Assembly: GCA_027012955.1 (NCBI GenBank)
Contig: JALUYL010000086.1
Location: 1 to 34,127 of the forward strand
Source of the DNA: Sulfurovum sp.
GTDB taxonomy: Bacteria > Campylobacterota > Campylobacteria > Campylobacterales > Sulfurovaceae
Reading direction: 5' to 3'
Length of the DNA stretch: 34,127 nucleotides
Shown here: positions 1,479-3,411 of the stretch, piece by piece
Layout: every line of letters begins with the position of its first letter
How positions within the stretch are numbered: the first letter of the stretch is position 1
Notes under the pieces: generated by a model
Told to the model about the DNA's origin: nothing
Seen by the model: the letters and a program-made list of their open reading frames with translations, nothing else
Databases searched by the model: none
Translations under genes and position numbers: made by a program

Positions 1479-3167
1479 TTACTCAGCTTCCAATACAGCA
1501 CCAAAACTGGCATTTGTGACCAATGCTCTATACTGTCTTAACCATTTACTTTTCAACGGCTTCACAAGAGGTGTAAAGTCTGCACGTCTTTTAGCTATCT
1601 CTTCCTCACTTAAGTTTGCTTGTAAGATGTATTGATCTACATCGATGTGAATCTCATCACCATCTTCAAGTAGTCCTATGAGACCACCTTCTGCAGCTTC
1701 TGGGCTCACGTGACCGATACTCGCCCCTCTAGTAGCACCTGAGAATCTACCATCAGTAATGAGCGCCACTTTATCACCAAGTCCCATACCCATAATGAGA
1801 GAAGTAGGGCTTAACATCTCTTGCATACCGGGACCTCCACGAGGACCCTCATAACGGATAACCACAACATTGCCAGCTTTGACTTTGCCTGCCAAGATAC
1901 CTTCTATCGCTTCATCTTGGGAGTTAAAACATACAGCCGTTCCAGTAAAAACTCTGTCCCCTGTAATCCCTGCAGTTTTAATCACAGCACCTTGCTCAGC
2001 GAGGTTACCATAAAGAATGGCAAGTCCACCTACTTCTGAGTAAGGGTTGTCAACTGTATGAATGATGTTGGTATCAGTAATCTCTGCATTTTTTACTTTT
2101 TCATACAGTGTTTCCCCTGTAACAGATAAGTTGTCAGCTAAGATATTATCACCACGTTTCATCATCTCATGCATGACTGCATTGACGCCACCGGCTTTAT
2201 TGATGTCTTCCATATGTACGGTTGAGAGTGATGGAGAGATTTTAGCGATGTGCGACACACGTTTAGAGATGGCATTGATGTCAGAGAGGTTAAAGTCAAC
2301 TTCAGCCTCTCTAGCAATAGCAAGCATATGAAGTACAGTATTTGAAGACCCACCCATAGCCATATCTACAGCAAATGCATTGCGTACAGCATTTTCATTG
2401 AGGATATTTCTCATACGGTACTTTTCACGCTGGGCTGCATCAGCTTTTGCTATCTCACAGATGCGACGCGCAGCTTTTTTGTAAAGCTCTGTTCTCTCAG
2501 GTGTCAATGCCAAAATTGTTCCATTTCCAGGCAGTGCAATTCCCATGGCTTCCATGAGTGTGTTCATAGAGTTTGCTGTAAACATACCAGAACATGACCC
2601 CCCACTTGGACAGGCATTACATTCGATGTCAAGAAGCTCTTCATCTGTAATCTCACCCGTTTCGTGCTTTCCAACAGCCTCGAAAGCAGTTGCCAAGTCA
2701 ATCGGTGTACCATCTTTGGTGTAACCCTTCTCCATAGGTCCACCAGAAACAAAAACAGTAGGTACATCTACACGTAACGCACCCATAATCATCCCTGGGA
2801 CAATCTTGTCACAGTTAGGGATGGCTATCATCGCATCAAGTTTATGCGCATTCATCACTGTCTCGATAGAGTTGGCAATGATCTCGCGGCTTGGAAGAGA
2901 GTAAAGCATACCATCATGCCCCATAGCGATACCATCATCCACACCAATGGTATTAAACTCAAATGGCACACAGCCATTTACACGAATTTCTTCTTTGATG
3001 ACTTCTGCCACTTTGTTTAAGAAAAAATGCCCTGGAATGATTTCTATAAATGAGTTGGCCACCCCAATAAATGGTTTAGCAAAATCTTCATCTTTTACAC
3101 CCGTTGCTCTTAACAAACTTCTATGAGGGGCTCTGTCAAAACCCTCTTTTATCTCGTTACTTCTCAT
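1479..3167 (-). CDS. ilvD: Dihydroxy-acid dehydratase
   Basis: Catalyses 2,3-dihydroxy-isovalerate (or -methylvalerate) to the 2-oxo acid, the penultimate step of valine and isoleucine synthesis, in the cytoplasm. The protein is 562 aa, full length for the IlvD/Edd family. Visible family motifs are [25 protein letters not shown] (Cys119) and [11 protein letters not shown] (Cys192). The position that is Cys in many [2Fe-2S] dehydratases reads Gly (IIPGHFF), as I recall for the E. coli [4Fe-4S] enzyme. An in-frame ATG lies 9 nt further upstream (3176), but the AAAGG motif abuts it. The ATG at 3167 (MRSNEIKEG) has the proper spacing and matches relatives. The gene stands alone, and its leader contains a palindromic element. 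Confidence 0.95.
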
Positions 3168-3189
3168 AATTTTCATCCTTTAATCTATA

Positions 3190-3349
3190 GACTTCTTGCA
3201 AAATGCTATACATACTTATACTTTTTATTGCACATCATCTTTCATGAAATAGTCTCTTGACTTAGCTATGGCTAGGACTTCGAGCCTACTTCATAAAATC
3301 TAATGCACACTAAAAAGTATCTGTAAAATATAGCATTTTGCAAGAAGTC
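3190..3349. mobile_element. 160-bp palindromic MITE-like element in the ilvD leader
   Basis: The two ends are perfect inverted repeats: GACTTCTTGCAAAATGC begins at 3190 and its complement ends at 3349, continuing for four more bases inward. The dinucleotide TA flanks both ends (3188-3189, 3350-3351) like a target duplication. Inward, the arms keep pairing imperfectly to about 3256 and 3283, for example ATACTTTTTA against TAAAAAGTAT. The tip carries TAGC-TATG-GCTA. There is no coding capacity. TA duplication and short terminal repeats suggest a miniature element mobilised by an IS630/Tc1- or IS5-like transposase; the family assignment is inferred. It begins about 20 bp upstream of the ilvD start codon. 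Confidence 0.7.
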
Positions 3350-3364
3350 TAAAATATTTTTTGG

Positions 3365-3411
3365 ATTATAGCACAAATACTATTTACATTTAAATTTTTT
3401 TAGGCTATAAT
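3365..3411. promoter_or_regulatory. Divergent promoters: ilvD (leftward) and tRNA cluster (rightward)
   Basis: Rightward: TTTACA (3383-3388), a 17-bp spacer and TATAAT (3406-3411), about 44 bp before tRNA-Gly. Leftward: the complement of 3365-3370 reads TATAAT, with only a weak TTTAAA-like -35. If the leftward box is used, ilvD mRNA starts near 3358 and carries the whole palindrome in its leader. Confidence 0.65.

Follow-up and report, generated by a model that had tools for sequence, protein, structure and literature searches.

A palindromic IS5-type MITE in the ilvD leader of a Sulfurovum genome, and a one-strand pairing signal in its family

What is the long palindrome that lies just upstream of ilvD in a Sulfurovum sp. 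genome, and does the gene's mRNA carry it as a hairpin with consequences for expression? The window, by which we mean the whole stretch of DNA analysed (34,127 nucleotides of contig JALUYL010000086.1), had been annotated from its letters alone as holding a palindromic MITE-like element of about 160 bp, with TA flanks, from which the ilvD mRNA might begin with a hairpin of about 70 bp beside the ribosome-binding site. The element is almost certainly a MITE, and we consider that overall it is probably an IS5-type MITE that works as a mobile RNA hairpin in the 5' UTR.

The palindrome and the ilvD leader

The palindrome is real: its DNA fold has a z of -8.1, which none of the shuffles equalled. 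The element spans 162 bp, without a gene of its own, and its limits, initially given as 3188-3351, are corrected to 3189-3350. We assign it to the minus strand, which is both the ilvD sense and the strand of the best RNA fold; read in this sense (3350-3189) it runs AGACTTCTTGC...GCAAGAAGTCT. Perfect ends of at least 17 bp had been claimed, and we measure 22: the perfect 22-bp terminal inverted repeats occupy 3189-3210 (ilvD-proximal, plus strand) and 3329-3350 (promoter-proximal, minus strand).

The gene, encoding dihydroxy-acid dehydratase (1479-3167, minus strand; TIGR00110, E=5.7e-226), starts as in its relatives with ATGAGAAGT; the element lies 21 nt from this ATG at 3167, close to the gene as had been noted but not at the 20 bp then given, and an in-frame upstream ATG at 3176 is absent from the relatives' leaders displayed. 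Towards ilvD, the sequence passes from a TATAAT box (3365-3370, minus strand) through the short CCAAAAAATATTTT and the palindrome to ATAGATTAAAGGATGAAAATTATGAGAAGT; a probable Shine-Dalgarno sequence, AAAGG, is at 3177-3181 (minus strand), and a divergent tRNA cluster lies on the far side of the element from ilvD. The ilvD leaders of all 29 relatives retrieved from the genus lack the element, and the insertion point is visible: the empty site in the closest relatives is TTTGTGCTATAATCCAAAAAATATT-AATTAAAGGCTCAAAATCATGAGAAGT, where the window has TTTGTGCTATAATCCAAAAAATATTTT, the 162 bp and ATAGATTAAAGGATGAAAATTATGAGAAGT. Close relatives' leaders keep the Shine-Dalgarno sequence, the start and the promoter, including its -10 box, the TATAAT that had been considered as the possible ilvD promoter, so the insertion is placed in the 5' UTR and the hairpin is likely part of the ilvD mRNA. 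If transcription starts near 3358, as the position of the -10 box suggests, the 5' UTR is lengthened to about 191 nt.

As RNA in the ilvD sense, the element is predicted to fold at -80 kcal/mol with 67 pairs, against -60 kcal/mol and 62 pairs for the opposite strand. The pairs fall in runs of 23, 3, 10, 9, 13, 3, 1, 1 and 4, and they continue right to the tip, somewhat beyond the initial description of arms that pair almost to the centre. The ilvD leader RNA as a whole has a predicted fold of -84 kcal/mol (z = -11.2, no shuffle as low). The hairpin of about 70 bp first envisaged at the mRNA start is close to the 67 pairs predicted, given a start near 3358, and it would stand beside the ribosome-binding site, ending 7 nt before the Shine-Dalgarno sequence; the site itself is predicted to be largely single-stranded (unpaired value 0.81 when the element is present and 0.62 when the flanks are joined), and simple occlusion of the ribosome site is therefore not predicted. 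An Rfam scan gave no family match at the element. A six-codon frame in the right arm, MKDDVQ, was dropped, as its start is lost in the alignment of copies.

Copies, target duplication and IS5-type relatives

The distribution of copies indicates that the element is mobile. A second copy in the same genome, 94% identical, lies on another contig (C109:21814-21977) within a perfect ACT/ACT duplication, and seven further copies of about 75-90% identity occur beside unrelated genes, away from ilvD, in 4 of 77 other genomes of the genus, two of the seven at the same place in two genomes. The initial annotation had held that a single copy conserved at ilvD would instead suggest a cis-regulatory RNA; the additional copies and the 29 empty leaders form the opposite pattern. 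The same ends at about 140-170 bp spacing are found in Campylobacterota MAGs (Nitratifractor, Sulfurimonas, HM1-3a) and also in Candidatus Fukatsuia, Emticicia, Brasilonema, Clostridiales and Bacillota, the closest named copies to the window element all being from Campylobacterota.

The target duplication is a 3-bp ANT, not TA. Across 56 non-identical copies the flank consensus is ANT/AGACT...AGTCT/ANT, with A at base -3 in 48 copies, T at base +3 in 52, and a middle base shared by the two flanks in 86%, where 44% would be expected. The TA flanks first reported belong to this duplication, the apparent TA being formed by the T and A that meet at the element junctions. By comparison with the flanks of other copies, the window copy's own duplication has decayed to TAT (3186-3188) and AAA (3351-3353). 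An ANT target is reported to be consistent with bacterial IS5 transposons (PMC4482050).

An IS5-family transposase is also found between MITE-type ends. A 907-bp IS with ends AGACTTCTTTCATAACC occurs twice in the complete genome of an order-level relative, with AAT/AAT around both copies. Its two overlapping frames match HTH_Tnp_4 (PF13613) and DDE_Tnp_4 (PF13359) above the Pfam cut-offs, and also NCBIfam NF033581 (transpos_IS5_4), each single frame falling below the whole-protein cut-off of the latter; its ends depart from the MITE ends at base 10 and once more from base 13 onwards. In one congener (G051), several contigs break off inside an IS whose ends are exactly AGACTTCTTGCAAAACT and whose N- and C-termini are related, and in Brasilonema elements with ends AGACCTCTTGCAAAAGTC surround DDE_Tnp_4 genes. 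The search for an autonomous partner, as originally suggested, therefore succeeded in relatives and not in the host: no intact partner was found in the host MAG (76% complete), and no complete one in the genus, the G051 copies being fragmentary, so for the window's own genome we infer the partner.

No autonomous IS was found in 20 stretches around exact ends in Candidatus Fukatsuia, which yielded for the most part MITEs of 120-170 bp or single ends, and the Fukatsuia DDE_Tnp_4 genes inspected do not have MITE ends around them. Among viral contigs that matched the 17- or 18-mer end, no transposase was found next to the ends inspected, and these matches are therefore probably due to chance. The IS N-terminus had no match among plasmids, and a 47-aa piece of it had none in Pfam or NCBIfam.

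Some shorter traces were noted alongside these copies. Short or single MITE ends lie in the window's own genome at C107:10312-10333, C48:32433-32469, C40:7582-7596 and C13:12867-12889, and include a 22-bp palindrome of two fused ends and a 37-bp palindrome. The end TAGACTTCTTGCAA recurs about 200 times, with at most one mismatch, in Candidatus Fukatsuia symbiotica (NZ_CP021659); most of the copies examined belong to MITEs of 120-170 bp. For a DEAD-box helicase gene beside the second own-genome copy (523-1692 within C109:20000-24000), the stretch from the element to position 1692 offers neither ATG nor GTG nor TTG close to where the N-terminus is expected; the gene's start may be unusual or damaged.

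Pairing on one strand across the family

The difference in fold between strands recurs in nearly all copies of the family. We compared 30 copies in a pairing register in which G.U and A.C receive equal scores, and counted events by parsimony on the tree. On the ilvD-sense strand the copies have 167 G.U cells against 41 A.C; changes from Watson-Crick pairs to G.U number 40 on the tree against 17 to A.C (p=0.003), with G.U:A.C events of 16:4 among copies from the window's genus and 27:8 among the remaining copies. The family also has 26 compensatory double changes from one Watson-Crick pair to another. A control family, the Fukatsuia MITEs with the same ends, has a G.U:A.C ratio of 60:51 and 5 double changes; the families differ clearly in double changes (Fisher p=2e-7) and at a borderline level in G.U:A.C ratio (Fisher p=0.048). 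The RNAalifold consensus is -51.5 on the ilvD-sense strand against -31.8 on the opposite strand. In this structure 29 of 60 pairs have changed on both sides and 95.4% of cells are paired, a value reached by 0 of 500 shuffles, which ignore relatedness and are set against a structure derived from the same alignment.

These counts look as if selection has preserved the RNA fold of the hairpin, on one strand in particular, in the family's copies. Repair between the arms could yield double changes, but without favouring one strand. Strand-biased mutation may still contribute to the signal, the unpaired sites being few; transitions at these sites run in the same direction at 12:6 (26:13 in the control family). 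Tentatively, and with some doubt, the family may amount to mobile RNA: in this Campylobacterota MITE, selection would act on the hairpin as the RNA of one strand only, and the element would spread before housekeeping genes as a prefabricated stabiliser or processing site for their 5' UTRs. The recognised part may be the hairpin tip CTTAGCTATGGCTAGGAC (3261-3278, plus strand), a cap motif common to an unrelated repeat family.

Orientation relative to genes gives a mixed picture. In the window's genus all 9 copies have the hairpin strand in the sense of the gene downstream (8 independent insertions, p=0.008, post hoc), but over all copies the ratio is 16:10 (p=0.33), and a general bias towards downstream genes was rejected as not significant. 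Several copies come to within about 12-50 nt of a start codon, and the genes that follow, named by eye from their translations, are rpe, ubiD-like, ychF and cca-like. Copies upstream of ychF in two different genomes (G018 and G088) are 79 and 37 nt away in the same orientation, with different genes on the other side; repeated insertion is possible.

Proposed mechanism, alternatives and known systems

What can be read in the DNA itself is mobility, ends, target duplication, an empty site, a conserved promoter and the one-strand pairing excess. On the reading that we prefer, the MITE would be non-autonomous and mobilised in trans by a transposase of the IS5-family HTH_Tnp_4/DDE_Tnp_4 type, which would recognise the AGACTTCTTGC ends and duplicate ANT; insertion would have occurred between the ilvD promoter and the ribosome-binding site. 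An ilvD mRNA beginning near 3358 would then carry 7 unpaired bases, the 67-pair hairpin and, 7 nt beyond its end, the Shine-Dalgarno sequence. The 5'-terminal hairpin would alter the life of the mRNA and its output while the ribosome-binding site remains open, most likely because attack on the 5' end is blocked, because RNase III cuts the 23-bp basal helix, or for both reasons. We lean slightly towards a real effect on ilvD expression.

The main competitor is an inert IS5-type MITE, whose hairpin has no consequence for ilvD and whose strand bias in the family reflects a single ancestor, strand-biased mutation or repair between the arms. An insertion unique to the window genome, the mixed orientation over all copies and the 12:6 lean of the few unpaired-site transitions would all suit it. 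The bias, however, is in the event counts on the tree and not just in the ancestral state, and it is there in two separate subsets; and the control family has a similar bias at unpaired sites without the pairing bias. A hairpin of this size at the 5' end of an mRNA is also unlikely to be without any effect. We regard inertness as a possible explanation, though one that we doubt.

Other explanations fare much worse. A native cis-regulatory RNA of ilvD, such as an attenuator or riboswitch-like leader, would fit the leader position and the strong covarying RNA structure, but the element is missing from ilvD in 29 of 29 relatives, stands upstream of unrelated genes and matches nothing in Rfam; the empty sites contradict a native attenuator, and this explanation is extremely improbable. 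TA does stand at both ends of most copies, as would suit a MITE of a TA-targeting IS630/Tc1-mariner element, yet the base outside the TA agrees far more often than expected, which fits an ANT target, and elements with such ends encode IS5-family transposases; we reject targeting of this type on the ANT pattern and hold such an origin to be very improbable. Nor is the palindrome at all likely to be mainly a terminator or boundary, despite its place between divergent ilvD and tRNA genes: it lies downstream of the conserved promoter, inside the probable ilvD transcript, and relatives share the arrangement without it.

The IS5-type MITE with a transcribed hairpin has its closest worked example, by analogy of mechanism, in the CREE at mtrCDE of Neisseria: a CREE can lie between promoter and gene, form part of the mRNA and be bound or cut there by RNase III (PMC2649163). 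CREE/NEMIS are likewise inverted-repeat MITEs of similar size, their longer forms being 153-157 bp (PMC2649163). The ilvD element differs in its ends (AGACTTCTTGC..., without Correia repeat ends or core), its ANT target and its IS5-family relatives, and the IHF site and outward promoter of CREE/NEMIS are not features shown for it; it would work like a CREE without being one. The 907-bp relatives share size and two-frame layout with the ISL2 group of the IS5 family, such as ISCaa2 and ISCaa3, given in PMC3196728 as about 915 bp with two overlapping frames and a transposase of ~275 aa; an assignment to this group, suggested by layout and target alone, would concern these relatives, the ilvD element itself having no transposase. 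RUP, Nezha and MITECca01 of Cardinium are also short, non-coding and dispersed with IS-like ends, but the parts of PMC3733652 and PMC9769881 that describe them report no strand-specific RNA pairing signal, and MITECca01 comes from IS982 (PMC9769881), unlike the IS5-type ilvD element.

A search of open-licence papers did not find the MITE family described. Its kind, an IS-derived MITE in a 5' UTR, is already known; the one-strand RNA pairing signal is unexpected. The locus offers a clean natural experiment: among close relatives, a conserved biosynthetic promoter and ribosome-binding site can be compared in leaders that have a 162-base hairpin between them and in leaders that do not. Comparing G.U with A.C changes in palindrome arms is a simple sequence test of whether a bacterial MITE works at the RNA level or is just a DNA palindrome, and could be extended to many MITE families.

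A second palindromic repeat family, of about 266 bp with ends GGGCACCTCTAATAATAGGTG, occurs in the window's own genome on contigs C50, C22, C82, C66, C55, C52, C48 and C25. Its inner hairpins carry the cap GTCCTAGCCNTAGCTAAG, which is also the centre of the ilvD MITE. The reversed control of the cap motif CTTAGCTANGGCTAGGAC gave 0 matches, while the motif itself has 13 copies in the window's own genome and turns up in 30 of the genus's 78 genomes, with as many as 26 copies in one genome.
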